Below, piece after piece: positions 6,453 through 47,699 of a stretch of 64,000 nt of DNA. A program made the position numbers and the translations under genes. The notes below the pieces were generated by a model. That model made no database searches, had not been told where the DNA came from, and saw only the letters and a program-made list of their open reading frames with translations. Position 1 is the first letter of the stretch. Every line of letters starts with the position of its first letter. Where the stretch lies: positions 62,001 to 126,000 of the forward strand of contig NZ_AAEW02000001.1 of assembly GCF_000167355.1 (NCBI RefSeq), given 5' to 3'. This DNA is from Desulfuromonas acetoxidans DSM 684. GTDB lineage: Bacteria > Desulfobacterota > Desulfuromonadia > Desulfuromonadales > Desulfuromonadaceae.

Positions 6453-7258
6453 GTCGGGGCTTGAATTGTTTGTTGAACACGATGCAATTCTAGTCCCGAC
6501 CTTATCTTTTATCATGGTCGCGTTGAGGGACTTCATCCGTTTTCGTGGATTGGTACGCACGTGACGTGGGCTTCCGCGCCCACACGTCGGGCTACTTTTG
6601 CGTCGACAAAAGTAGCGCAAAATCGACTCCCAAGGGCTGTCATCAATCAGACTTCACGGAGGCATTGCAGATCTTTTCCGCGCCAGCCGCGTTACCCCTC
6701 TTCGCCATAGAACCACTATGGCTCATCACTCTGCCTTGCTGACTCAAAAAATCTCTCGCAATATCTCTCGTTCACCTGATTAATAACAACCCCGGTGCGC
6801 CCTTCGGGTTCCCTCTCTGCGGTCACGAACACCGCGATGTCGGCAAAAACTCGGCCTGTGTGCCACAGTCCTCAAACAGTTTGCCGACGATCATCCCGAC
6901 GACGCACCTTGCGTTCGGTGCTGCTGAACGCAAGGGCTGGACGCTAAATAACACACGAACGTAGGGTGGGCACCGTCCCACCCGTTTGATCGGTGCCACG
7001 AAAAAGATAGAAAGCAGCGTCAAGCAGTTATCAACGTTTTACGCCAGAGATGATGGAAAGCATGATTTGCCGAGCTAAAGGGAGGCAAGCCGAATCCGTA
7101 ACGCATATCGGAAACAGACCCAGTGTAGGTTGATCTAGGGTCAGGAGAAGTTCAGCCGGTTTTTGCATACTTTTGAGCGGCCAGTCAAAAGTATGTCGCC
7201 TGCCGGGGCGATTCCCGGCGGTCTTGATTTTCAAAGGTACATCAAAGGCAGACCCCTT
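6453..7258 (+). repeat. Dispersed stem-loop repeat, copy 1 (near full length)
   Basis: About 800 bases built of hairpins that recur elsewhere in the window. In order: a GTCGGGGCTTGAATTG hairpin (6453-6507), module A with GACGTGGGC/GCCCACACGTC and GCTACTTTTG/CAAAAGTAGC (about 6560-6620), an insert shared only with the copy at 16345-16700, module B (CCGCGATGTCGGCAA, about 6800-6950), module C with GGGTGGG/CCCACCC (about 6963-6982), module D (TTATCAACGTTTTACGCC) and module E with CATACTTTTGA/TCAAAAGTATG plus GCCGGG/CCCGGC (about 7166-7225). No transposase or credible coding frame. The last 17 bases overlap the end of a small minus-strand gene. Confidence 0.85.
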
Positions 7259-7391
7259 TGACTTTCTCAATTGATAAAGAGATCAATTTAATTTTATGCA
7301 GAATCCCATTCGTTTTGTATCCGGCCAAGAAGCCCCCTGCCAAAATGAGACTTAAATGGAAAAGGATTGCAGGCATTAAAATGATGCCCAT
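7242..7391 (-). CDS. Small membrane protein, 49 aa (hypothetical)
   Basis: A short minus-strand frame beginning ATG at 7391 with a full AAGGAGG eight bases upstream, which is why it is reported. The product starts MGIILMPAILFHLSLILAGG, a single membrane helix of about 20 residues with a Gly-Gly kink, followed by a Lys-rich tail (about 7 basic residues), so an N-out/C-in single-pass topology is expected. No family recognised. Its last codons and stop lie inside the 3' edge of the repeat copy 6453-7258, so the C-terminus may have been replaced by repeat sequence. Coding status rests on the ribosome site and helix only. Confidence 0.5.
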   Translation of the reverse strand: MGIILMPAILFHLSLILAGGFLAGYKTNGILHKIKLISLSIEKVKGVCL

Positions 7392-7786
7392 ATTAAAATC
7401 CTCCTTGTCATAGATATTCTGGTAAATGAGATCTTTTATGAATCCATGAACCTCAAGCTACCTAGGCCGAAGCTAATGATCAAGGCCAAAATCTAGGACC
7501 CTCCATGGACAGTAAAGAAAGATCAGACCAACTCAGAAAAGGTGGATCGTCTCACGATCAAAAAATCAACGACATTTCATATTTTCAAACCTTTAAGACC
7601 CTACCAGATCGACACAGCTAAAAACAGAAATAATAAAAAGCTATTGACAGGAAACTTTCAGCGTGCGAGAAAATTAACTCTTTGCAATATATGTTGGGTT
7701 CCTGCACCAAATCATTAGAACCGTCTTCAGCAATACACCTATTAAATAAAAGCGACTCCCCACTCCAAGAGAGGACTTCTGGCACG
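7392..7786. other. 395-base AT-rich gap between divergent small genes
   Basis: This stretch separates the minus-strand small membrane gene from the plus-strand gene at 7787. I see no gene, no repeat module and no clear terminator. A TTGACA at 7644-7649 could be a -35 element for the plus-strand gene, but I find no matching -10 at the usual distance. Confidence 0.35.
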
Positions 7787-8356
7787 ATGAATAAAAAGGA
7801 AATAACCGCGAAAGTGCATGAACTATTGGCCAGCGGCATGCATAAATCAGATGTCTTTACTCAACTCTCCGGCCAAGGGGTTAAGGACAGTTATCTAGCT
7901 CATGCCATCGCCTCTTACCCCAACCCAATCCTTTGCTCGAGGCATGGGCTCAAAGTCAGTATTCTCGTCACGATTATGGTTATTGAGGCGGGGCTGGGGC
8001 TTTGGCTAGGATATAGCATCGGAGCCCTGATTGGCCCTAACGCCAAGTGGATTGCAGGCTTACTGACCGCAGCAATTCCTTTGCTTTTCGCCTGGGGGTT
8101 TTATAACCACTTTGCCAAGGCTTACAATATTTTCATCATCCTGACGATCGTACAATTTCACAATGTGCTTCGGGGTTTTACCGAAGAACCAATCTCCACC
8201 TCCATCGCCGTGGTCATTAATATTGGCGTGTTAAGTTACGTCTGGTATGTCCGGCAAAAACTATTTCCTGATTTTGCCTTTATCACGCCCAAAAAGGTTC
8301 AGGGTGAATATGTGTTTAAGGAAGAGCCCTTCAGCACGCAACCGGAGCACTCCTGA
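7787..8356 (+). CDS. Multi-pass membrane protein of unknown function, 189 aa
   Basis: Not assigned to a family. The ATG at 7787 (MNKKEITAKV) was preferred over 7682 because GAGAGG precedes it and the upstream extension is not protein-like. Residues 1-45 form a soluble helical segment resembling a short helix-turn N-terminal domain (ITAKVHELLASGMHKSDVF), followed by about four hydrophobic helices between residues 55 and 155 and a short cytoplasmic tail. It is followed after 48 bases by a zinc-ribbon membrane protein, also of unknown role. The pair lies between repeat copies in a region that looks acquired. Confidence 0.65.
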   Translation: MNKKEITAKVHELLASGMHKSDVFTQLSGQGVKDSYLAHAIASYPNPILCSRHGLKVSILVTIMVIEAGLGLWLGYSIGALIGPNAKWIAGLLTAAIPLLFAWGFYNHFAKAYNIFIILTIVQFHNVLRGFTEEPISTSIAVVINIGVLSYVWYVRQKLFPDFAFITPKKVQGEYVFKEEPFSTQPEHS

Positions 8357-8404
8357 TATTCGCCCCAAAATACGATAATCAGTTCCCAACATTTTGGAGA
8401 AATT

Positions 8405-8803
8405 ATGTTTGAGACAACAATGCTATGTCCCTACTGTGGGACGATGAATTCTATTTTTAGTGAAAACTTACCCTTCCACTCGACATCAATTTTATGCCAA
8501 TCCTGCAACAAGCAGCTCCACTTTACTGCTCCCCCTAAAGACGAGGAGGAACAATTTATCGCTGAATCTGTCCACGAAATTGAGGGGAGCTTCCCTGAAG
8601 AGTTCAAAAGAAAAAGCTGGTTCGGAAGTGTTTTCTTAATCGCATTTTCTCTTCCCCTACTCAAAACCGCCATTTCAAACGCTATGTTGGCATTGCAGCC
8701 AAATATCCACGGTGCCGGCAGCAAAGCTTTGTTTTTTGCTCTCTTAGGCGGTATCCCTTTTTATTTCGGCGTTAAAGGGTTGATAAAGAGAAATAAGCAG
8801 TGA
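8405..8803 (+). CDS. Zinc-ribbon membrane protein, 132 aa (hypothetical)
   Basis: The ATG at 8405 follows TTTTGGAGAAATT. The N-terminus carries two cysteine pairs, CPYCGT (residues 8-11) and CQSCNK (about 31-34), the spacing of a treble-clef/zinc-ribbon. A charged linker (about 45-75) leads to two membrane helices (about 77-95 and 105-125) and a basic tail. The arrangement, a cytoplasmic zinc ribbon tethered to two helices, occurs in many uncharacterised small proteins; no specific function can be given. It is probably co-transcribed with the gene at 7787. Confidence 0.7.
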   Translation: MFETTMLCPYCGTMNSIFSENLPFHSTSILCQSCNKQLHFTAPPKDEEEQFIAESVHEIEGSFPEEFKRKSWFGSVFLIAFSLPLLKTAISNAMLALQPNIHGAGSKALFFALLGGIPFYFGVKGLIKRNKQ

Positions 8804-8828
8804 CATTTTAAAAAAGCTCAATAAATCT

Positions 8829-8925
8829 TGGTGCTTTTGAGCGGCCAGTCAAAAGTAAGTTGGCTGCCGGGACGAAACCCGGCTACCTTGGTTTTAAAGG
8901 TACGTCAACGTAGATCTGACATCTT
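8829..8925 (+). repeat. Dispersed stem-loop repeat, short copy (module E only)
   Basis: About 100 bases matching only the last module of the long repeats: GCTTTTGA-gcggccag-TCAAAAG followed by GCCGGG-acgaaa-CCCGGC and the CTTGGTTTTAAAGGTACGTCAA tail. The upper part of the first stem has lost pairing (GGTG against TAAG). It sits 25 bases after the zinc-ribbon gene. Confidence 0.8.
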
Positions 8926-9007
8926 TAGCTGTCTCTCTACCTTACAAAGCTCTATCAACATCTGCTCCTAAAAGTTCAGACTCTTTTGAACTGCTCGAGG
9001 TTTCAAC

Positions 9008-9430
9008 ATGAAAGAATTAAACGATTGGAGATTTTTCTGGCCAAAAATCAACTCTGTCGAAACCGCCAGAAACGCAGCGGGACAAGGCGTGGCAGCAGCG
9101 ATTTTTGCCGCTTGTGCCGCTCCAATTCCTTGCCTACTTTATTTAATCCGCCAGGGGCAGCAACAACACTTTTATCTCATATTTGCCCCAACTCTCTTCT
9201 TTGGCCTGTTTGCTTTCTTCATTTATAAAATGTCTCGGACAGCTGCAGTCAGCGGATTGATTCTTTACCTGCCCATCGTTATTAGCATTCTCAATAGACC
9301 AGGCGGAGGCAGATATTCAGGTTCGTCCTTTTTTTATTTTCTTGCGCTTGCCTTCGTTCTTGCCTTCATCAATTCAATTCGAGGAACTTTTTTCTACCAC
9401 AAAATAATAAAGCAAGATGGGGTTCAGTAA
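9008..9430 (+). CDS. Membrane protein of unknown function, 140 aa
   Basis: Start ATG at 9008 follows CTCGAGGTTTCAAC. The protein has a short soluble start (residues 1-20, aromatic-rich) and then four hydrophobic helices (about 25-47, 53-73, 78-95, 108-128). A glycine-rich loop GGGRYSGSS stands before the last helix. I recognise no family. It is the third small membrane-protein gene between two repeat copies; context suggests a hitch-hiking accessory gene, but no functional partner is apparent. Confidence 0.62.
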   Translation: MKELNDWRFFWPKINSVETARNAAGQGVAAAIFAACAAPIPCLLYLIRQGQQQHFYLIFAPTLFFGLFAFFIYKMSRTAAVSGLILYLPIVISILNRPGGGRYSGSSFFYFLALAFVLAFINSIRGTFFYHKIIKQDGVQ

Positions 9431-37052: not shown

Positions 37053-37964
37053 TCAGCCCTGCTCTTTTATCGCCTCCACCAACTCCTTAAGGACCCGATC
37101 CGCATCAGCATAGGCCACCTGGCAGGTGCCAACGGCTCGATGACCGCCGCCGCCGTATTTAAGCATCAGAGAACCGACATCGACCATGGACGTGCGATTG
37201 AGAATACTGTAGCCAACAGAGATCGCAACAAATTCCTTACCACGTCCGTCAATCAGCCGAATGGAAATATTTGTTTCGGGAAACATGGAATAAACAAGAA
37301 ACCGATTCCCCGGCGGCAGATCGCTCAAGCCACGAGCATCGGTGATCGCCACCGGACCATCAACCTGGGTATGCGTTTTGAGGAACTCCTTGCAGCGGGC
37401 ATCATTTTCGAAATAGAGCTTGACCCGCTCCTGAATATCGGAACCGGCCATGATCTCTTTGATGCTTTGGGTACGTAACGCTTCCATCAGGTTTTTCATC
37501 AACTGCAGATTACTGATGGTAAAGCTTTTATGATAGCCCAGACCGGTGCGCGGATCGCAAATGAACCCGAGCAGCACCCAACCTGTCGGGTTGAGGATCT
37601 CTTCTTCGGTCAGATCGGCGGAATCGACACGATCGACATATTCGAGCATCTCGTCAAATTTGTTTAACCGGGCATCCTGATAATAATCGTAAATCACCCG
37701 GGCAGCACTGGGGGCCTGCTCACTGCGCCCTTCGTATTGCCCCTCAAGGGCCAACCGTTCCCGCTCACTGGAATGGTGATCAAACCACAGCCCGCAACCG
37801 GGAACATAGGGCACATTGGCTAAAACATCATCCTTGGTCACTGCAATTTTGCCATCCTGCAGGTCTTTGGGGTGGGCGTACTCCATATGATCGATCACCC
37901 CAAGCTCTTTGAGCAGAGCGGCACAGGCGATCCCGTCAAAATCGGACCGAGTCAACAAACGCAT
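37053..37964 (-). CDS. DHH-family phosphoesterase, 303 aa
   Basis: A metal-dependent phosphoesterase of the DHH/DHHA1 type. The N-terminal RSDFDGIACAALL carries the first aspartates, WFDHHSSE the DHH motif (about residues 63-66), and GGGGHRAVGTCQV near the C-terminus the DHHA1 signature. It lacks a CBS or TM extension, so it is smaller than GdpP; related stand-alone proteins act on oligoribonucleotides, c-di-nucleotide products (pGpG/pApA) or are annotated exopolyphosphatase-like. In a genome rich in cyclases a role in c-di-nucleotide turnover is possible but not shown. The start at 37964 has GGAGG at six bases. Confidence 0.88.
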   Translation of the reverse strand: MRLLTRSDFDGIACAALLKELGVIDHMEYAHPKDLQDGKIAVTKDDVLANVPYVPGCGLWFDHHSSERERLALEGQYEGRSEQAPSAARVIYDYYQDARLNKFDEMLEYVDRVDSADLTEEEILNPTGWVLLGFICDPRTGLGYHKSFTISNLQLMKNLMEALRTQSIKEIMAGSDIQERVKLYFENDARCKEFLKTHTQVDGPVAITDARGLSDLPPGNRFLVYSMFPETNISIRLIDGRGKEFVAISVGYSILNRTSMVDVGSLMLKYGGGGHRAVGTCQVAYADADRVLKELVEAIKEQG

Positions 37965-38073
37965 CAACAACCTCCATGGTATGAGTTTATTCCAGTAATC
38001 AATCTTAAAATACCCGGCTCTTTTTGCAAGACGCAGCGGTCAATACCGCTCGATTAAATCACTTTTTATCCGA

Positions 38074-41000
38074 TCAGAACAACGGACATTCCGCACCGAG
38101 ACACTCCTGATTGCGCACATGTTGATCACAAGGCAGCCATTCTGCGGCAACGAGGGGTAAAGGCAGATACTGCTGAGACAATTCAGCGGCTTTTTGCAAC
38201 GACACCACGCAGTCACGGTTGCAGCAGCGCGCCGCTTTGAATTCCGCAAGATCCGCCAGCACCTGTTGCACCACGTTTTGCACCACCTGTCGTTGGTCGC
38301 CCTTGAGCGGATTGGCTTCGAGAATCAGACTAAAGGCGATCCCCACACCAACAGCGGCACCGCATGCACCGTTGTACGCGCAACTGCCGCCGATCACCTG
38401 CGCTCCACGACTCAAACCCGCCTCCAGCAGCGATTCTCCCATCTTGCCACCAATATTGCGGTAACAGGTCAGGATCACCGCCGGCACCAGAGCATGGTAT
38501 TCCGGACCATGGAGCGGAACCGCCGGGTGCTGACGCAACTGATGAAACAGTTTGAACATATCGGTTTCCCGGCTGTGACGGCACATGGTTTCGATGACGG
38601 CCAACGCATCTTCACTGTGACAGGCATCACACACATAATGACCCTGCTCGCAACACGCCGAGGCGTCAAAATGGCGTCCGCAATAACTGCATTGATAACG
38701 CGTGAACACCACTTCATAGTTGAGCGGCGCACCACAGACCATGCAGCCGCTTTGCTGACGTGACACCGGCACATCATCCACGGCATCGTCGGGAATTTCA
38801 GGAGTGATGGCGCAATTGCAGCTCATGGTAAAAGTTATGTTGGTCACATGACCATCATCATCAAGCTGATAAAGTTGAGCTCCGGCACTACGGGCCAGGG
38901 GAACAGGAATCTCATCGATCTGTCCCGGCACCAGAATCCGCCCATCGGGCAGCCGGATACTGGGGAACGGGCCGGGGTACATCACCCGCACCAACGCCTG
39001 ATCCTGTTCGGGCTTGCGGGCACTGAAAGTCAGCGAGAAGAACGAATGGTCCTGGACGCGGCGGTAGGGCACCCGTTTGTTACACATCACCCCTTCAAAG
39101 CCACTCTCATTGAGCAGGCCAACCAGATCTTTCTGGGTCAGGGCACCGGCAATGCATTCGCCGCGCAACACTTCATCGTTGCGAATAGCGGCATCGGGTT
39201 CTTTTTCACACACCACATCGGCCACCACCAGACGACCTCCCGGCTTTAACACACGGAAAATTTCGTTGAACAGCAGGCGTTTATCCGCTGAAAGGTTGAG
39301 AACGCAGTTGGATAGAATCAGGTCAATACTGTCTGATGCCACCGGCAGTTGTTCGAGGTACCCTTTGCGAAAGTCGAGATTGTTATAGCCGAGGTTTTCA
39401 GCTACACCCACCGCACCCTTGCGGGCCAGGTCGAGCATGGGATCAAGCATGTCAACGCCAATTACCCGCCCTTTGTGACCGGTAAGACGTGCGGCAAGAA
39501 AACACTCCACGCCACTGCCGCAGCCCAAGTCAAGGATGGTCTCCCCGCCCTGAATCTCGGCATCGAGCACCGGGCTACCGCAACCGTAACCGCGGAAGCG
39601 ATAGGCGGGCGGGATATGATCGATCATGGCCGGTTCGTAGCACACCGGATTGAGAATATCTTCGTTTTTATCGCCAACGGCTTCGCTGTAGAAATCTTTG
39701 ACCACACTGCGACTGTCTTCATGGGTGAGCGACAGCAGGCAGTTGGAATGGAGCAATGCCACCTTGCCATGGGCACCACAGCTCTCCAGCATATCGCCCA
39801 TTTTGAGACGCAGCCCCGGCTCGTCGCGCTCGGGGAGCCGACCTGTGGCCTCGACAATCAGGTCGAGGGCCATCTGCTCATAGAGCGGCAGATAGGGATC
39901 ATCGCCAACAAAGGTCTCAGCGTGAATGTAACTGTGGTCAATATCGCCGCCACCAAGCAGATAACGCCACGGCGAAGCCCAGTCACGACAGCTGCTGTGG
40001 CGAATCGCATCGAGCACACTGCTGTTCTTCCAAGCCTGTTGCAGAGAACCGCTCAGGGGGGTTTTGAGAGCGTCAACACCAACCAGGGCCGCAGAGGGAT
40101 AGAGCTGGCCGTCCGGCCCGATGGCCGCAGATTCCCAGCCACTGCCACTGCCGTCATGAATGGTTCCAGAGGGGGCAAAGATCTGGGTTTTCAGGGCATC
40201 AAGGTTGTCGATGCTTATACCGCGCTGGTGTGCCCGCGCTGCGGCCTGATTGAGATAATGATGAATGGTCTCAACGGACGGCACCTGCGCCGATGCAGCG
40301 CGACCACGCACGAAGTACCACATGAAGTGAACATTACCTGCGCCACAATCCGCCGCCAGATCGACCACGTCCGCCATATCGGCAACATTGTCCTGTTCTA
40401 CACACATCGACAACGTAAATGGGAACTGATTGTCACGCAACCACTCGAGTTGTTGTTGGAGACGGGAAAACATACCATCACCACGTAGATGATCGTGTCG
40501 CTCGGGCAACCCATCGACACTGATCTGCAAATGAAAACGACTGAGATCCCAGTCAATACCATTGAGCTGGTGGCTCAGGGTCATGCCGTTGGTGAGCACC
40601 GCCACATGGTGGCTGGGCGTGTTGAGGATGTGCCGGACAATGTCGGCAAAGTCGGGATGAACAAATGGTTCACCACCGGTCAGGGCAAACACCCGGCAGC
40701 CCAGCTCGGACGCCTCATCCACCCGGCGGATAATCTCGCCTGTTGCCAGTTCGTCCTGGCTGTTGGGTCCGGAAGTAAACAGACAATGGCGACAGCTCAA
40801 GTTACAACGGTTTGTGATATGCAACCACAATTCGCGAAGATGATCGGCTGCGAGCAAGGCGCCACGTCCCGGATAGGGGCTGACCACGGCATCCGGCAGG
40901 CGATTGAGAAAACGCTGGACGCGGGGCGTGTCGACATCAAGACTCCCCGTCCGTAACTGCTGAAGCAAGGCATCACCAGCCCGATTAGGAACAAACCAGG

Positions 41001-41076
41001 CCGGTTGATCGTCGCGAAGATAAATCGGGCAGGAGCGGTGCTCAAACCGCTGCCATAAAGAATGGTCAAAACTCAT
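38074..41076 (-). CDS. Radical SAM / methyltransferase / DUF5714-like three-module protein, about 1000 aa
   Basis: Three enzymes in one chain. N-terminal about 75 residues resemble a PqqD-like recognition fold (AWFVPNRAGDALLQQL). Then a radical SAM domain: TNRCNLSCRHCLF supplies the CxxxCxxC cluster ligands (residues 91, 95, 98), with ALTGGEPFVHPDF and LQISVDGLPERHD. A class I SAM methyltransferase follows (about 505-690): ILDLGCGSGVECFLAARL, GVDMLDP and the ArsM-like ILSNCVLNLSADK. The C-terminal about 230 residues are cysteine-rich: two zinc-ribbon-like CxxC pairs, then IGGSCAYNGACGAAVGVGIA and several CC and CxxxC motifs, which I associate with DUF5714. I place the start at the ATG 41076; a GTG at 41124 is an alternative. 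Substrate unknown. Monocistronic. Confidence 0.85.
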   Translation of the reverse strand: MSFDHSLWQRFEHRSCPIYLRDDQPAWFVPNRAGDALLQQLRTGSLDVDTPRVQRFLNRLPDAVVSPYPGRGALLAADHLRELWLHITNRCNLSCRHCLFTSGPNSQDELATGEIIRRVDEASELGCRVFALTGGEPFVHPDFADIVRHILNTPSHHVAVLTNGMTLSHQLNGIDWDLSRFHLQISVDGLPERHDHLRGDGMFSRLQQQLEWLRDNQFPFTLSMCVEQDNVADMADVVDLAADCGAGNVHFMWYFVRGRAASAQVPSVETIHHYLNQAAARAHQRGISIDNLDALKTQIFAPSGTIHDGSGSGWESAAIGPDGQLYPSAALVGVDALKTPLSGSLQQAWKNSSVLDAIRHSSCRDWASPWRYLLGGGDIDHSYIHAETFVGDDPYLPLYEQMALDLIVEATGRLPERDEPGLRLKMGDMLESCGAHGKVALLHSNCLLSLTHEDSRSVVKDFYSEAVGDKNEDILNPVCYEPAMIDHIPPAYRFRGYGCGSPVLDAEIQGGETILDLGCGSGVECFLAARLTGHKGRVIGVDMLDPMLDLARKGAVGVAENLGYNNLDFRKGYLEQLPVASDSIDLILSNCVLNLSADKRLLFNEIFRVLKPGGRLVVADVVCEKEPDAAIRNDEVLRGECIAGALTQKDLVGLLNESGFEGVMCNKRVPYRRVQDHSFFSLTFSARKPEQDQALVRVMYPGPFPSIRLPDGRILVPGQIDEIPVPLARSAGAQLYQLDDDGHVTNITFTMSCNCAITPEIPDDAVDDVPVSRQQSGCMVCGAPLNYEVVFTRYQCSYCGRHFDASACCEQGHYVCDACHSEDALAVIETMCRHSRETDMFKLFHQLRQHPAVPLHGPEYHALVPAVILTCYRNIGGKMGESLLEAGLSRGAQVIGGSCAYNGACGAAVGVGIAFSLILEANPLKGDQRQVVQNVVQQVLADLAEFKAARCCNRDCVVSLQKAAELSQQYLPLPLVAAEWLPCDQHVRNQECLGAECPLF

Positions 41077-41210
41077 AACGTAAAACACTGGTGTCGGCCG
41101 AGTGATCCTCGGTCGGCCCTCCACAAATCGGATAGTATTATGGGCATTATTGGATTCGCCGAGGACTGTATCACCAATGGGTCAAAAAACTCAAGTCCGG
41201 GATTGACGCG

Positions 41211-41573
41211 TTAAGGCGTTTGCCGGGCAAGAATTTCCTCATAAACAGCCAGCACCCCTTCAGGGCGATAACTACAGCTGCGCACGCGCTCGCGGCCATT
41301 CGCCTCGGTCACCTGCCAGTCCATCACTTCAACTTTTTTGCGCCAATGACGGCTGAGTTTATCGCCTTGCAATGATTGCAATCTCTGCCAGAGATCCTCA
41401 AGTGTCATCAGGGTGAAGGTCTCAATTTTATCAATCTTCTCAAGGCGATGGCAGAGAAAGTAGTCGAGCAGTTCCACCTGGTCTGAACTGTGACCAGGCT
41501 CTGTCCAGGCGATAAAATCATGTTCCGGTTGACGTTGTTGCTCAATTTTCTCGTGAAGCTGTTGTACAGTCAT
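41211..41573 (-). CDS. Hypothetical protein, 120 aa
   Basis: The ATG at 41573 follows GGAGGAGCGC; the frame is open further upstream but with no ribosome site. The protein is soluble, mixed alpha/beta and charged, with HDFIAWTEPGHSSDQVELLDY in the N-terminal half and KVEVMDWQVTEANGRERV in the C-terminal half. No family recognised. It is divergent from the FKBP gene with about 108 bases between starts, which must hold both promoters. Confidence 0.58.
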   Translation of the reverse strand: MTVQQLHEKIEQQRQPEHDFIAWTEPGHSSDQVELLDYFLCHRLEKIDKIETFTLMTLEDLWQRLQSLQGDKLSRHWRKKVEVMDWQVTEANGRERVRSCSYRPEGVLAVYEEILARQTP

Positions 41574-41681
41574 GCGCTCCTCCATCATTGAATTGTATAC
41601 AAAAAGACACTCCGGCCATTGACATGCCCGGCAAATCCTCATAGTCTCAGAAACACGTCATTTTACGAAAGGATTTAATTC

Positions 41682-42219: not shown

Positions 42220-43332
42220 CTACTTGAGATTTTTTGAGCAGCAGCAGTTGCGCCCTTCTTTCTTGGCCTGATACAGACAACGATCTGCCGCGGCAATCAT
42301 GCCATTGCCCGTCAGCATACTGGCGTGTTCCGGATCACATCCGGCCACGCCAAAGCTGGCCGTCAATCGGATGCTCTGAGGATCACAGGCAATCTCCTGA
42401 TCGGCAATACTACGCCGCATCCGTTCAGCCACCACCAACGCCCCCTCCAGATTGGTTTCCGGAAGAACAATCACAAACTCTTCACCGCCATAGCGGGCCA
42501 GCCAGTCAACCCCCTGACGCAGGGATTGGGCCAACCCCTGTGCGACACTCTTGATCACCCGGTCGCCGGTTTGGTGACCGTAATGGTCGTTGATCAACTT
42601 GAAATGATCGATATCACACATGATCAACGACAAACTCTGCTGATAGCGTTGCGCGCGGCGTATCGCACCGGGGAACGTCTCGTTGAAGTAGCCACGGTTG
42701 AAACTGCCGGTCAAGGAATCGCGCACCGCCAGCTCGGCAATCTCGGCATTGCGTTTTTTGATGGTGTCGAGCGCTTCGTTAAGCTGCTCGTTCATCCGCT
42801 CCAGCTCACGCTTTTGCTGCAACGCCCCTTCGTAGGTGGACAGCAGCAAGTCGAGAATCTGTGATCGCTCCGAGTTGATCACATGTTTCTTGCCGGCAAA
42901 ATAGATCTCCACCCCGTCATCGTTACGTTGCTGGCTGCGAATCTTCTGATTCAACAGAATATTGTGCACCTGAGAAACCAGCAGGCTGCAGTCAAACGGC
43001 TTGGTGACAAAGTGATCGGCACCGCATTCCAACCCACGAACGATATCTTCAGGTTCGGAAAGTCGCGTCAACAACACCACCGGCACATGACGGGTTTCCA
43101 CATGCCCCTTGATCTGGCGGCACAGCTCAAAGCCATCCATATCAGGCATCACCACATCACTGATAATCAGCGCCGGACGATAGTTCTCCAGCCACAACAG
43201 AGCCCGCGAAGCGCCATCGGCACAGGCAACACTCAGGCCCTCTTCTTCAAACAGTTGCTCCAGTTTCAATGCCTGGGTATAACTGTCTTCAACGACCAGG
43301 ATATCGACATTTCTGGCCTGCAATAAACTCAT
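42220..43332 (-). CDS. REC-GGDEF response regulator (WspR-like), 370 aa
   Basis: Output cyclase of the chemosensory operon and its last gene. REC domain residues about 8-125: VEDSYTQALKL, phospho-acceptor Asp in ALIISDVVMPDMDGF (about 58), Lys in FVTKPFD. A coiled-coil linker (about 165-205, MNEQLNEALDTIKKRNAEI) leads to the GGDEF domain with YGGEEF (about 290). The position of the I-site reads RQGVD, so the RxxD motif is missing. It follows cheB by 40 bases and starts with AAGGTAGGGTT upstream. Phosphorylation by the CheA-REC protein is inferred from operon membership. Confidence 0.93.
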   Translation of the reverse strand: MSLLQARNVDILVVEDSYTQALKLEQLFEEEGLSVACADGASRALLWLENYRPALIISDVVMPDMDGFELCRQIKGHVETRHVPVVLLTRLSEPEDIVRGLECGADHFVTKPFDCSLLVSQVHNILLNQKIRSQQRNDDGVEIYFAGKKHVINSERSQILDLLLSTYEGALQQKRELERMNEQLNEALDTIKKRNAEIAELAVRDSLTGSFNRGYFNETFPGAIRRAQRYQQSLSLIMCDIDHFKLINDHYGHQTGDRVIKSVAQGLAQSLRQGVDWLARYGGEEFVIVLPETNLEGALVVAERMRRSIADQEIACDPQSIRLTASFGVAGCDPEHASMLTGNGMIAAADRCLYQAKKEGRNCCCSKNLK

Positions 43333-43372
43333 AACCCTACCTTTAACATCAAAAAGAATCTCGCGCTCGCGG

Positions 43373-44401
43373 CTAACGACAACACAGGTGAATCAACTGC
43401 TGGCCAATCCGCTCCGGACAAAGTTTATAGTTCCCGGCGCCGAGCTGTTCCGCTTCTCCAGGCATGCCGTATACCACACAACTCTCTTTATCCTGAAGCA
43501 GTGTTACAGCGCCCTGTTGCTGCAACGTCAACAATTCCGCCGCCCCATCACGCCCCATCCCGGTCATCAGAACCCCAACCACATCTCCACCGTAAGCACG
43601 GGCTGCAGACTGGAACAGATAGGAAACCGCCGGACGCACACTGTGCATCATCGGCCCCTCTTTAAGGACAATCCGTCCTGCAGATGTTACGCCCATATGC
43701 ACATCATCCGGGGCAAAATACACGACACCCGGTTTGATGCTCTGACCGTTCTCAGCCACACATAAAGAGAGGGCACAGCCGTTTTGCAGCCACTGTACCA
43801 TCCCCGGAACAAAACCGGGAGAAATATGCTGAACCACCAGGATCGGCAACGGGAAACTGGCCGGTATCTGACGCAGCATATTCTGCAGAGCCACCGGGCC
43901 ACCGGTGGAAGCACCGACCACCACCAGCTTGTAACGGCAGGTGGCTTTTTTGTCAGAGGACTCTACAGTTTGTGTTGCGGAAGGTTGCGGGGGAGCGCAA
44001 ACATCCAGACCGGCCACCTGACGCAGGGTACGCAACAGTTTATCGCGATCTTCTACCGCCGCTTTGCTTTTGGGGCCACTCGGTTTAGGCACCGCAGCCA
44101 CGGCACCAGCTTCGAGAATCCGAAAAGTCTCCTGAGACGCGCTGCCATTGACCAGACTGCTGACAATAACCACCGGCGTCGGACAACTGGCCATGATCTG
44201 GCGCGTGGCGCTGCAACCATCAAGAACCGGCATATGGATATCCATGGCCACGACATCGGGACGCAGACGGCTGGTCAGTTCCGCGGCCTGCTCACCGTTT
44301 TCAGCGACGGCCACCACTTCCATATCCTCAGCGGAATCGACAATAAACTTGAGATAAGCGCGAGAAGAGGCAGAGTCTTCGGCAATCAACACCCGGATCA
44401 T
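43373..44401 (-). CDS. cheB: CheB-type protein-glutamate methylesterase (WspF-like), 342 aa
   Basis: Removes methyl groups from receptor glutamates. REC domain (about 1-120) with AEDSASSRAYL, the Asp in VVAMDIHMPVLDGC and Lys in AAVPKPSG, a short linker, then the methylesterase domain with catalytic Ser in VGASTGGP (about 165), His in VVQHISPGF and Asp in MTGMGRDGA. The length is normal. Its ATG overlaps the stop of the upstream REC-GGDEF gene as ATGA, a sign of tight coupling, and a second REC-GGDEF gene follows. In Wsp systems this protein opposes the CheR homologue to set adaptation. Confidence 0.95.
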   Translation of the reverse strand: MIRVLIAEDSASSRAYLKFIVDSAEDMEVVAVAENGEQAAELTSRLRPDVVAMDIHMPVLDGCSATRQIMASCPTPVVIVSSLVNGSASQETFRILEAGAVAAVPKPSGPKSKAAVEDRDKLLRTLRQVAGLDVCAPPQPSATQTVESSDKKATCRYKLVVVGASTGGPVALQNMLRQIPASFPLPILVVQHISPGFVPGMVQWLQNGCALSLCVAENGQSIKPGVVYFAPDDVHMGVTSAGRIVLKEGPMMHSVRPAVSYLFQSAARAYGGDVVGVLMTGMGRDGAAELLTLQQQGAVTLLQDKESCVVYGMPGEAEQLGAGNYKLCPERIGQQLIHLCCR

Positions 44402-45330
44402 AACGTCACCCGCCGAACACAGTTGCGTCCAGCTTCCTTGGCCGCATAAAGCGCTTCATCCGCCGCCGCCATCAACTGTTCAACACTGAGCAGATGCTCC
44501 ATGGACTCAGGCAGATAGCTGACAACACCAAAACTGGCGGTGAGAGCGATGGTCTGATCCTCCCAAGGGATGGATAACTGTTCAATGGACTGGCGCATCC
44601 GCTCGGCAACGGCCAGAGCCTTGTCGCTGTCAGTATCGGATAAAATAACGACGAACTCTTCACCACCGTAACGCACCAGCAAATCGAAGCCCTGACGCAC
44701 CTGTTGCTTCAAACAGACGGCAAAATCCTGCAACACCCGATCACCGGCCAGATGGCCGAAGGTATCATTGACCTTTTTAAAATGATCGACATCGCAGATC
44801 ATACAGGAAACCGGCTGGCGTGAGCGCACGGCACGGGCGATAAACGACGGACACTGGGTATTGAAATAACTGCGATTGTGCACTTCTGTCAGAGCATCGG
44901 TCACCGACAGATGGAGCACCTCTTCATTGCGCTTTTTCAGGGAACGTTCAAGATCGATCACCCGCTTGGCCGTATTGAGGCGTGCCATCAATTCCAGCTC
45001 AGAGACCGGTTTGGTCAGGTAATCGTCGGCACCGGCCTGCAGACCGGCGACAATATCATCGGGATCGTCCTTGGAGGTGACGAGGAAGATAAACACATAG
45101 CCATCGAACTTTCGGCTGCGGATGGCCTGACACAGCTCCACACCATCCATCTCCGGCATCACCCAGTCGGTGATAATGATCGGAAAATATTCCTGTTTGA
45201 GGCGATCAAGGGCTTCACGGCCATTACTGACCACCACCGCATCAAAGCCGTGCGCTTCCAGCATAAACTGAAATCGTAACGCCTGAGTACGGCTGTCCTC
45301 AACCAATAACACTTTGAACTGCTGCTGCAT
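44398..45330 (-). CDS. REC-GGDEF response regulator (second WspR-like cyclase), 310 aa
   Basis: REC residues about 5-122 with LLVEDSRTQALRF, phospho-Asp in IIITDWVMPEMDGV and Lys in YLTKPVSE, then a helical linker and a GGDEF domain with YGGEEF (about 240). The I-site position reads RQGFD, again without RxxD. This protein is clearly a paralogue of the gene at 42220, sharing DALTEVHNRSYFN/DSLTGSFNRGYFN-type starts, and both lack inhibitory sites. It starts 29 bases after cheA with GGGGAACAC upstream and overlaps cheB by four bases. Two cyclases fed by one kinase is unusual for Wsp-like operons. Confidence 0.93.
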   Translation of the reverse strand: MQQQFKVLLVEDSRTQALRFQFMLEAHGFDAVVVSNGREALDRLKQEYFPIIITDWVMPEMDGVELCQAIRSRKFDGYVFIFLVTSKDDPDDIVAGLQAGADDYLTKPVSELELMARLNTAKRVIDLERSLKKRNEEVLHLSVTDALTEVHNRSYFNTQCPSFIARAVRSRQPVSCMICDVDHFKKVNDTFGHLAGDRVLQDFAVCLKQQVRQGFDLLVRYGGEEFVVILSDTDSDKALAVAERMRQSIEQLSIPWEDQTIALTASFGVVSYLPESMEHLLSVEQLMAAADEALYAAKEAGRNCVRRVTL

Positions 45331-45359
45331 GTGTTCCCCGTTGTCAGTTCGACATCCTG

Positions 45360-47699
45360 CTAAATCAACCGCTGTATTGTATCAAGCAGATTACTCTGAT
45401 CAAAGCTTCGTTTAACAATATAGGCATTGGCTCCGGCGACAATCCCTTTTTCTTTGTCTTCCGCCGACTCAAGGCTAGTGACCAGCACCACCGGAATCTC
45501 CTGCACACTCTCTGTCGCCCTGATCCGTGTGGTGAGGCCGAATCCGTCAAGCTGCGGCATCTCCACATCACTGACCACCAGATCAAACGCCCCAGCCGTC
45601 AGCTTGGTAAAGGCATCTTCACCGTCAATAGCAGTGGTCACCAGATAACCGGCAGCTTCGAGAATATTTTTGATCAACATGCGTGACGTAATGGAATCGT
45701 CAACCGCAAGAATCCGCCGTGGTGTCTGTTGATCGCTATTGTCATTGCGAATTCGCCCGGCACTCTCCATGGGCGCGGACAGCAAGTCGCGAGCATCAAG
45801 AACCGGCACCACCCGACCATCTCCCAACACGGATGCACCGGAGAAAAAACGGACATGGCGCAACTGTTCACCGAGTCCCTTGACCAGCAGTTCATATTCA
45901 CCATCAACCTCATCAACGACAAAACCGATCCGTTGCTCACTGTCATGCACCACAACCACATGGATCTGATCCGTCTGAGTGATGGGGCGATCAGTGATCG
46001 CCAACAGCCCTCCGAGATTGACCAGAGACACGTTTTCACCATCAACACAGACCACTTCACGGTTTTCCACTGTGCGGATGGACTGGCGGGAGACCTTAAG
46101 CACCCGCTCCACCATAACGGTCGGCACAATCAGTTCAACGCCGCGGGCCTGAATAAGGATGCCCTTGAACACTGCCAGACTCACCGGGATATGCAACTTA
46201 AAGCAGGTCCCCTGACCTTGGCTCGTCTCAACATGCAGGTGGCCACCAAGATCCTCGACCTTCTCCTTAACAATCGCCATCCCCAAACCGCGCCCGGAGA
46301 TCTCGGTGATCATGGAACTGGTCGACAGCCCGGAGTTGAATATCAGCCATGCCGCCTCCTCATCACTCAATTCGGCAGCAGCCTGCGCAGTGAGCAACTG
46401 CCTGTCAACGGCCTGAGCGCGCACCCGGTCAAGATCGATCCCAGCACCATCATCGCAGATTCGCACTTCGACGCGGCCACCCTGAGTCCGTGTCAGAGAG
46501 ATCTGCAACCGCGCCTTGGCCGGCTTACCGGCAGCCAAACGGGTCTGGGGCAGCTCAATACCGTGATCAATCGCGTTACGGATCAAATGTGTCAACGGCG
46601 ATGAGAGCATTTCGAGTATCCGCTTGTCAATTTCAGTATCATCGCCCTCCACCAGCAGATCAACCTCTTTGCCCTGAATCCTCGCCAGCTCACGCACAGT
46701 CCGGGGAAAGCTGGCCGACAAATTGGCAAACGGCACCATGATGATCTCCTTGACCTCTTCCAACAGTTCATCAATCAAGGTGGCGGTGGTGGCTTTATCC
46801 TGGAGCAAGCGTTGTTGCTGGCGGGCAACCTGGCTTTCGAGGTTCTGCAGAGCGTTGTGGGTCCGCTCAAGATAGCCGAGCAAGCCCTCCATGGCCCGTT
46901 GCGCATCTTCGCAGTGCAGATCCTCGGAACGGTTCTGCAAACGACGCAACTGGGGCGCCATCTGATTCCAATCTTTGTGCCAGAGCTCAAATACCTGGGC
47001 CATCCCCAAACTTTCATGATGGCGTTCGGACACGGTCAACTTCAGGGTAATCAGGCTTTCCGCCTTTTGCATCACACTGTCAAGGTGATGGGTGGCGACC
47101 CGTAACGTCCCCTCTTTGATTGTCGTGGATGGGGCCGTTCGATCGGTTGATTCGGCAGGGGCTGCAGGGAGAACTTCGGGCCCAGCAGCATTATCTGTCT
47201 CTGGCGGATCGGAAGTCTCAACAGCACTAGCTTCAACGCCAGACAGCGCCTGATCCTCGGGCTGAGAGACAACCGCTTTATCCGCTTTCCTGCAGGGTTC
47301 ACATAACTGCTGCAACTGGCTGATGAGCGGAGCCACCTGTTTTCGGTAATCAGCTTCCTGGGTGGTGGAAAAATGGTCGAGAAACGCCTCCATCACCCGC
47401 ACACAATTGTGCAACAGATCAAAATCATCCGTCTGCAGGGCACACTGACCTTTTTTAACCTGCGACAACACGCTTTCGAGGGTCTGGCACAACGACTCGA
47501 TATCGCTCAGCGACACAGACCGCGCCGCGCCCTTGAGACTGTGCGCTTCACGAAAAGCCACCTCAAGAGGTTCGCTGTCAGCCATCCCATCCTCCACCCG
47601 CTCCAGTTGCACCAGGCAGGACGACAGGCTGGTCAGCCGCTCAAGGGCCTCCTCCTTGAAGGCCTCGCGGAGCATTATCAGCAGTTGCTGCTCATCCAT
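45360..47699 (-). CDS. cheA: CheA-REC hybrid histidine kinase (WspE-like), 779 aa
   Basis: Kinase of the chemosensory array. Hpt domain at the N-terminus with the phosphorylated His in REAHSLKGAARS (about residue 52), a linker of about 130 residues rich in Ala, Pro and Glu, a dimerisation segment, ATP-binding domain with HLIRNAIDHGIELP, RICDDGAGID and GRGLGMAIVKEKVEDLGG, a CheW-like regulatory domain, and a C-terminal REC (about 660-779) with AVDDSITSRML, the Asp in LVVSDVEMPQLDGF and VTSLES. The fused REC is characteristic of WspE/FrzE-type kinases. It stands between the MCP and the first REC-GGDEF gene. Confidence 0.95.
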   Translation of the reverse strand: MDEQQLLIMLREAFKEEALERLTSLSSCLVQLERVEDGMADSEPLEVAFREAHSLKGAARSVSLSDIESLCQTLESVLSQVKKGQCALQTDDFDLLHNCVRVMEAFLDHFSTTQEADYRKQVAPLISQLQQLCEPCRKADKAVVSQPEDQALSGVEASAVETSDPPETDNAAGPEVLPAAPAESTDRTAPSTTIKEGTLRVATHHLDSVMQKAESLITLKLTVSERHHESLGMAQVFELWHKDWNQMAPQLRRLQNRSEDLHCEDAQRAMEGLLGYLERTHNALQNLESQVARQQQRLLQDKATTATLIDELLEEVKEIIMVPFANLSASFPRTVRELARIQGKEVDLLVEGDDTEIDKRILEMLSSPLTHLIRNAIDHGIELPQTRLAAGKPAKARLQISLTRTQGGRVEVRICDDGAGIDLDRVRAQAVDRQLLTAQAAAELSDEEAAWLIFNSGLSTSSMITEISGRGLGMAIVKEKVEDLGGHLHVETSQGQGTCFKLHIPVSLAVFKGILIQARGVELIVPTVMVERVLKVSRQSIRTVENREVVCVDGENVSLVNLGGLLAITDRPITQTDQIHVVVVHDSEQRIGFVVDEVDGEYELLVKGLGEQLRHVRFFSGASVLGDGRVVPVLDARDLLSAPMESAGRIRNDNSDQQTPRRILAVDDSITSRMLIKNILEAAGYLVTTAIDGEDAFTKLTAGAFDLVVSDVEMPQLDGFGLTTRIRATESVQEIPVVLVTSLESAEDKEKGIVAGANAYIVKRSFDQSNLLDTIQRLI

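Follow-up and report, generated by a model that had tools for sequence, protein, structure and literature searches.

A fusion of radical SAM, ArsM-type methyltransferase and DUF5714 modules in Desulfuromonas acetoxidans as a probable single-chain organoarsenical synthase

What does a bacterium make with a radical S-adenosylmethionine (SAM) domain, a methyltransferase and a cysteine-rich tail joined in one chain? The question is raised by a gene in a 64,000-nucleotide stretch of the Desulfuromonas acetoxidans DSM 684 genome (the whole stretch analysed, hereafter the window). The fusion protein that it encodes is probably a single-chain organoarsenical synthase doing the work of ArsM plus ArsS, because its methyltransferase is ArsM-like, its relatives share partner genes with ArsS, it nearly excludes ArsS, and its own genome has ACR3 elsewhere (376.8 bits). 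The sequence-only reading of the window had recognized a radical SAM domain with CxxxCxxC, an ArsM-like methyltransferase and a DUF5714-like tail on one chain, as Pfam and profile matches and invariant cysteines confirm. Its coordinates also hold, on the minus strand, with a GTG at 41124 in the same frame as a possible alternative start; 41076 is favored because the frames of relatives L014, L015, L016 and L017 open only a few codons 5' of the same Met-Ser-Phe-Asp start. The gene and its modules are as follows.

38074..41076, minus strand: three-module gene, 1000 amino acids (aa); N-terminal unit, radical SAM, ArsM-type methyltransferase and DUF5714; alignment of 14 members
40819..41076, minus strand: N-terminal unit, residues 1-86; predicted as three strands followed by two helices, a shape that could be PqqD/RRE-like
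40354..40818, minus strand: radical SAM core, residues ~87-241; PF04055 at 87-240; C91-x3-C95-x2-C98, Cys in 73/73
39787..40176, minus strand: SPASM-like region, residues ~301-430, without conserved Cys; motifs GPDG..YPSA and GGGDxDHSY
38857..39672, minus strand: ArsM-type methyltransferase, residues ~469-740; NF008823, NF040538 and ArsM fold matches; C499 (YGCGSP) and C641 (GECIAGA) invariant
38077..38766, minus strand: C-terminal module rich in cysteine, residues 771-1000; DUF5714 (828-1000) preceded by zinc-ribbon-like pairs

The gene is real and not a chance frame, as 22 of 58 genomes among relatives (own included) carry a match at E<=1e-60, 18 at full length and four either truncated at a contig edge or split in two. 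The window frame has no inner stop. All 73 aligned members of at least 960 aa keep the radical SAM cysteines (91, 95 and 98), both zinc-ribbon-like pairs (C778/C781 and C796/C799) and C433, C446, C499, C591, C641 and C755. A second copy, 44% identical, lies on contig C3 of the own genome (L001:5622-13214). SsuA/SsuC/SsuB-like ABC transporter genes adjoin it, and upstream are a CobW-like GTPase, an MIP channel and a TIGR04282-like gene with a weak match; a transporter like this one also flanks members in L072, L085 and L087. In two same-genus genomes, G009 (L032 and L034) and G001 (L018 and L035), the gene is in two pieces, with a TAA inside one in G009; these are either pseudogenes or assembly errors.

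Pfam places Radical_SAM at residues 87-240 (72.9 bits) and Methyltransf_31 at 509-657 (115.3 bits), the class I methyltransferase domain covering approximately 508-660. The ArsM profile NF008823 matches residues 471-692 (E=1.7e-64, 217.9 bits), and the best NF040538 stretch is 579-740, which suggests that the part after the core methyltransferase domain is also ArsM-like. The best 13 PDB hits in a Foldseek search of the full-chain predicted model (mean predicted local distance difference test [pLDDT], 75.5) are ArsM/AS3MT chains (4fr0, E=2.1e-19). The available part of one report gives cysteines 72, 174 and 224 of CmArsM as conserved (PMC5552862). C499 and C641 of the fusion each align with a Cys of ArsM-like proteins in L192 and L205. 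By motif, we equate these two residues with CmArsM 72 and 174, and H677 is presumably the place of the third (224). By profile and predicted fold, the fusion methyltransferase is thus ArsM-like.

The neighborhoods of relatives were observed to carry arsenosugar-type genes. A scan of named genomes returned 218 relatives, mostly from Desulfuromonadales and other deltaproteobacteria, with some Sulfurospirillum (by record titles of the best 80 of 218); analyses of named loci rest on these best 80. Neighbors were counted at 77 of them, since the script found no core gene in L077, L100 and L110. Within six genes of the fusion, VTT proteins occur at 18 loci, a DUF3047/dicluster cluster at 17 and a TIGR04282/TIGR04283 cluster at 16 (clusters are single-linkage, c3 mixing DUF3047, dicluster proteins and some VTT-bearing frames and c2 mixing TIGR04282 with TIGR04283); rhodanese (7), MerA-like (4) and methylthioribose-kinase-like (3) genes are rarer. 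The gene had been described earlier as standing alone, which is true of the window copy and not of its relatives, 33 of 77 loci having at least one of nine recurrent partners. One BLAST rule was applied to the 77 fusion loci, 40 ArsS neighborhoods and, as a control, 40 arbitrary stretches of 17.5 kb taken from genomes with ArsS or the fusion (hand-chosen at round coordinates; fusion loci average 15 kb). Any partner was found at 33 fusion loci, 19/40 ArsS neighborhoods and 1/40 control stretches (SsuC-like only); TIGR0428x genes were found at 17, 5 and 0, respectively (fusion versus control, p=5.6e-4), and at 5/40 they are not the rule beside ArsS.

At 12 of the 16 loci with the TIGR04282/TIGR04283 cluster, the member is at least 51% identical to the window protein over the best segment, and the arsenosugar-type link is therefore not confined to the lineage of the second copy. 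The next TIGR0428x gene overlaps the fusion end, with script-chosen starts, in L051, L055, L064, L068, L072 and L090. Scores were compared with cut-offs in four of the 16 loci (L042, L068, L087 and L090): both families exceed them in L042, L068 and L090, as they do in L147, and the TIGR04282 match in L087 falls just short (131.6 bits; cut-off, 134). A methylthioribose-kinase-like gene adjoins a TIGR04282/04283-type gene in three Sulfurospirillum loci (L085:4309-5436, L087:7539-8579 and L088:5547-6653); scores are below the cut-off of 275 (212.1 bits in L085 and 178.1 bits in L087). Such a gene would fit phosphorylation of 5-arseno-ribose and is a candidate for a missing arsenosugar step. The sequence-only reading had suggested a search for split modules, and a split version was found at L147, where dicluster, DUF3047, TIGR04282, TIGR04283, an N-terminal unit-radical SAM-ArsM protein (761 aa) and DUF5714 (334 aa) follow each other on one strand. 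No described pathway had been known to that reading for this combination; the arsenosugar-type neighbors and the split version now point to a likely one.

The fusion and ArsS (TIGR04167) were observed largely to exclude each other. Of the 118 genomes analyzed for the order, 51 encode ArsS and 37 the fusion (every match to alignment A1 with E<=1e-100 was counted, contig-edge fragments included); in a phylum sample of 297 genomes, ArsS is encoded by 88. In tests that ignore relatedness, both occur together in two genomes of the order (G045, and G109 with a contig-edge fusion fragment) versus 16 expected (Fisher p=4.4e-9), in 4 of 51 genera versus 9.7 expected (p=1e-3) and, in the phylum sample, in none of 21 fusion genomes (DUF5714 frames of at least 900 aa) versus 6.2 expected (p=7.5e-4). 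ArsS is still absent (0/25) when four shorter or edge frames are added, and among all 37 DUF5714 genomes it is found in three (G241, G266 and G408), each with a short DUF5714 frame. Free ArsM (E<=1e-40) was found in 15 of 118 genomes, 13 with ArsS, one with the fusion and one with neither. Genome-level co-occurrence with TIGR04283 was useless as a test, with matches in 106/118 genomes of the order, mostly to frames of ~350-400 aa, and physical adjacency was used in its place.

The surroundings of ArsS resemble those of the fusion. In L177, ArsS heads a same-strand run of TIGR04283, DUF3047-like, TIGR04282 and VTT-like genes. L205 encodes an ArsM-ArsS fusion (7201-9267; TIGR04167, 302.1 bits; cut-off, 300), flanked by TIGR04283 and rhodanese-like genes on one side and dicluster and TIGR04282 genes on the other. 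The order is reversed in the ArsS-ArsM fusion of L214 (7796-9802; 370.2 bits), which has a MerA-like gene next to it and a DUF3047-like gene four genes upstream; the stretch contains no TIGR0428x gene. As judged from these sequences, fusions of ArsM with a radical SAM domain come in three arrangements with related surroundings, one of them using another radical SAM subfamily and DUF5714. Near ArsS in L191, L192, L198, L200 and L201, VTT and MerA-like proteins seem to be fused, since open frames of 713-725 aa match both.

The cysteine-rich tail had been proposed for a DUF5714 profile check, and PF18978 matches residues 828-1000 far above its cut-off (194.8 versus 26.2 bits, E=1.1e-57). Six cysteines are invariant over 47 sequences: C129, the C181-C182 pair, C213, C222 and C227 of the module (chain positions 899, 951, 952, 983, 992 and 997). 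Residues 771-1000 also match positions 34-266 of the MbdU profile (NF045648) with 111.2 bits. Assignment to that selenoprotein family would require a score above 600 and two selenocysteines, and the fusion has Cys at 951/952 and no inner stop; MbdU is tabulated with two selenocysteines and a CU motif in the accessible part of PMC13188914. By analogy, this kinship would support thiol/selenol chemistry or metal binding for DUF5714. The module is modeled with confidence (mcdea4fb46cec, window 38077-38766; pLDDT, 93.6), and a Foldseek search found no entry with E<1.7 in the PDB library searched; searching the PDB by sequence yielded 13 hits, all weak (E>=0.069) and most of them to zinc-finger-like proteins or ATP-synthase c subunits. 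A relationship to the C-GCAxxG-C-C family (PF09719), suggested by eye, was not confirmed (hhalign of A2 against one L177 sequence resembling PF09719 by eye; probability, 5.4%). DUF5714 also stands alone in L153 (6567-11467), flanked by an AcsV-like corrinoid activation protein and, by eye, a CobW-like gene, and an MtaA-like methyltransferase is close by; in L145 a stand-alone copy is near an ArsR-like gene (by eye). Within titles and abstract openings, with subscription journals mostly outside, no paper treating this fusion and none on DUF5714 was found.

In the part of PMC12159101 available, arsenic adenosylation in oxo-arsenosugar biosynthesis, the reaction of ArsS, is given in a sentence without an enzyme name and with a reference naming ArsS. 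For the fusion, we infer which substrate is used, what the two reactions are and in which order they run, and what DUF5714 does, as follows. Arsenite would bind C499/C641 of the ArsM module and be methylated from SAM to mono- and dimethylarsenite. The radical SAM module would then cleave a second SAM and add the 5'-deoxyadenosyl radical to trivalent arsenic, giving 5'-deoxyadenosyl-dimethylarsine or its arsine oxide, and the cysteine-rich DUF5714 module may hold or re-reduce arsenic between steps. In relatives, separate methylthioribose-kinase-like, TIGR04282, TIGR04283, VTT membrane and DUF3047 proteins would carry the product on to an arsenosugar or arsenosugar lipid. For the window organism, a simpler arsenical, adenosylated or methylated, may be the product, because the copy stands apart and the glycosyltransferase-like pair is below cut-off as far as searched. 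The earlier suggestion of sequential chemistry on one substrate is compatible with this scheme, a metalloid being the likeliest of the substrates it named; nothing points to a peptide (precursor peptides were not searched for). A more specific claim, that this is a one-polypeptide synthase of adenosylated methylarsenic that arose independently in anaerobes from a non-ArsS radical SAM lineage, with an arsenic-carrying cysteine module for which no solved fold was matched, is possible and is advanced tentatively.

Several results weigh against a single-chain replacement of ArsM plus ArsS. The radical SAM part aligned with an ArsS over 68 aa only (35%), and TIGR04167 is unmatched in the own genome at E<=1e-25, though the fusion is present; on sequence grounds, the radical SAM domain of the fusion belongs to another subfamily. 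The whole chain scores 217.9 bits with NF008823, below the cut-off of 263, which any protein reaches in just 1/118 genomes of the order. The third ArsM Cys is not conserved: position 677 is H in 53/73 members, with Cys not among the five commonest residues (L205 and L192 also lack Cys in the stretch aligned to this presumed site). No arsenic or arsenosugar-type genes lie beside the window copy; the best TIGR04283 match in the own genome is 175.6 bits (cut-off, 182), and two TIGR04282-like genes, both near the second copy, score 89.5 and 82.8 bits (cut-off, 134; no genome-wide TIGR04282 search was made). None of the nine partners occurs at 44/77 fusion loci, many of them on short contigs. Queried for ACR3, the named loci gave no hit, and queried for ArsR they gave one (L077); ACR3 was seen only in L148, beyond an ArsR gene that follows a contig-edge DUF5714 fragment. 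The role of TIGR04282 and TIGR04283 in arsenosugar synthesis is assumed here from NCBI family names only, and these names may rest on context. The exclusion tests do not allow for relatedness, and 38/51 ArsS genomes also lack free ArsM at E<=1e-40, so that its rarity in fusion genomes says little.

The alternative that survives best, although it is unlikely, is an organoarsenical enzyme whose radical SAM module transfers a group other than 5'-deoxyadenosyl (3-amino-3-carboxypropyl as in arsinothricin, or methyl by radical methylation) and whose product is no arsenosugar. The distance from ArsS, the lack of an ArsS match in the own genome and the subthreshold glycosyltransferase-like pair would all suit such an enzyme, and PMC12159101 describes a radical SAM enzyme that forms another arsenic-carbon bond. 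Set against this are the partner genes in common with ArsS, the absence of ArsS from most genomes with relatives, and the methylthioribose-kinase-like gene at three Sulfurospirillum loci, which fits a 5-substituted ribose.

Binding, methylation or detoxification of another toxic element (mercury, antimony, selenium or tellurium), with no arsenic sugar built, is improbable. The tail is related to the "metal-binding" selenoprotein MbdU, MerA-like flavoenzymes occur within six genes at 4/77 loci, ACR3 was not found beside the named loci with the query used, and the best-scoring models for the transporter genes of the second copy are SaoA, SaoP and SsuA-type, none of which reaches its cut-off. The methyltransferase is nevertheless ArsM-like by profile and predicted fold, and the partner genes also occur near ArsS.

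A one-chain form of a Trs-type triad (TrsS, DVU_1556 methyltransferase and DUF5714) with a non-arsenic function is less probable again. In L150 (6177-8295) a stand-alone DUF5714 gene lies directly after TrsS (548.8 bits; cut-off, 490), close to a DVU_1553-type CoA ligase and a DVU_1556-like methyltransferase (152.4 bits; cut-off, 155); in L149 (7311-9417) DUF5714 directly follows a TrsS-type radical SAM gene that is 86% identical to the L150 TrsS. However, TrsS is of another radical SAM subfamily and has a score of 326 bits with tetraether-lipid synthase as well, and the fusion methyltransferase scores 217.9 bits with ArsM versus 87.2 with DVU_1556.

The N-terminal unit bears on the last alternative. 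A PqqD-like N terminus, proposed from the sequence alone, has no support from sequence searches: none of 19 fusion N termini has a PqqD match in Pfam, a profile of the 19 found no PqqD in PDB sequences, and this identity by sequence was rejected. The predicted elements (strands 8-13, 16-21 and 27-30; helices 32-43 and 51-57; from the full-chain model) follow the order strands then helices, which would allow a PqqD-like fold. Residues ~301-430 are, as we take it, SPASM-like; between positions 300 and 431 of alignment P0001 (73 rows; window-protein columns) no position is mostly Cys, and only position 339 is Cys in more than 1/10 of rows (21/73). A maturase of a ribosomally synthesized and post-translationally modified peptide (RiPP), with an N-terminal recognition unit and with the radical SAM and methyltransferase modules acting on a small peptide, is the least probable reading. 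In its favor are the scores of the core with SPASM peptide maturases, the presence of SkfB and SuiB in the fold hit list of the full-chain model, and the predicted N-terminal topology. Against it, PqqD/RRE sequence matches and SPASM-type Cys are absent, and none of the annotated recurrent neighbor clusters is RiPP-like (no search was made for open reading frames of precursor size).

Two genes adjoin the fusion in the window.

41211..41642, minus strand, same as the fusion: upstream gene of 143 aa; no family above cut-off
37053..37970, minus strand, same as the fusion: downstream DHH-like gene; DHHA1 match below cut-off (E=0.033)

Across the 80 named loci, the 143-aa gene is adjacent to the fusion elsewhere only in L036 and L037, and the DHH-like gene is near it elsewhere only in L036, L037 and L084. 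The latter had been called a DHH phosphoesterase, a label that rests here only on the subthreshold DHHA1 match. A terminator-like hairpin (37022-36988) follows it; overall, the scan found 5 terminators versus 4.8 in shuffles, no excess. Upstream, at 42220-47699, a run resembles response regulators/GGDEF, CheB and CheA by eye, and the same order occurs near the gene in L037.

If the fusion is a single-chain organoarsenical synthase, sediment bacteria of the Desulfuromonas and Sulfurospirillum kind would make complex organoarsenicals by a route missed when searching for ArsS alone. One protein would show the coupling of two SAM chemistries on a toxic intermediate, and DUF5714, without a solved relative in the PDB library searched, would gain a testable role. 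The pathway could be tested in named strains, for example Malonomonas rubra DSM 5091 (L053) or Sulfurospirillum cavolei UCH003 (L085).

Among known systems, the Trs-type cluster of L150 holds the same three kinds of module close together, in separate genes, with another radical SAM subfamily and other neighbors. The ArsM-selenoprotein fusions (NF041536, NF041537 and NF047649) likewise join ArsM to another domain, and MbdU (NF045648) shares the C-terminal region; unlike these, the fusion has Cys in place of selenocysteine, scores far under their cut-offs and has an added radical SAM domain. Arsinothricin biosynthesis, whose radical SAM enzyme we take to be named ArsL, differs, by description, in the group transferred. 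Like the fusion, it combines ArsM with a radical SAM enzyme that forms a carbon-arsenic bond, according to the available part of PMC12159101. ArsM plus ArsS, the arsenosugar system, differs in that the fusion has another radical SAM subfamily, a Cys-free SPASM-like region, an extra N-terminal unit, DUF5714 and one chain. Both systems combine an arsenite methyltransferase with a radical SAM enzyme, CxxxCxxC is common to ArsS and the fusion (73/73), TIGR04282, TIGR04283, VTT and DUF3047 genes accompany both, and ArsM and ArsS are themselves naturally fused in both domain orders.

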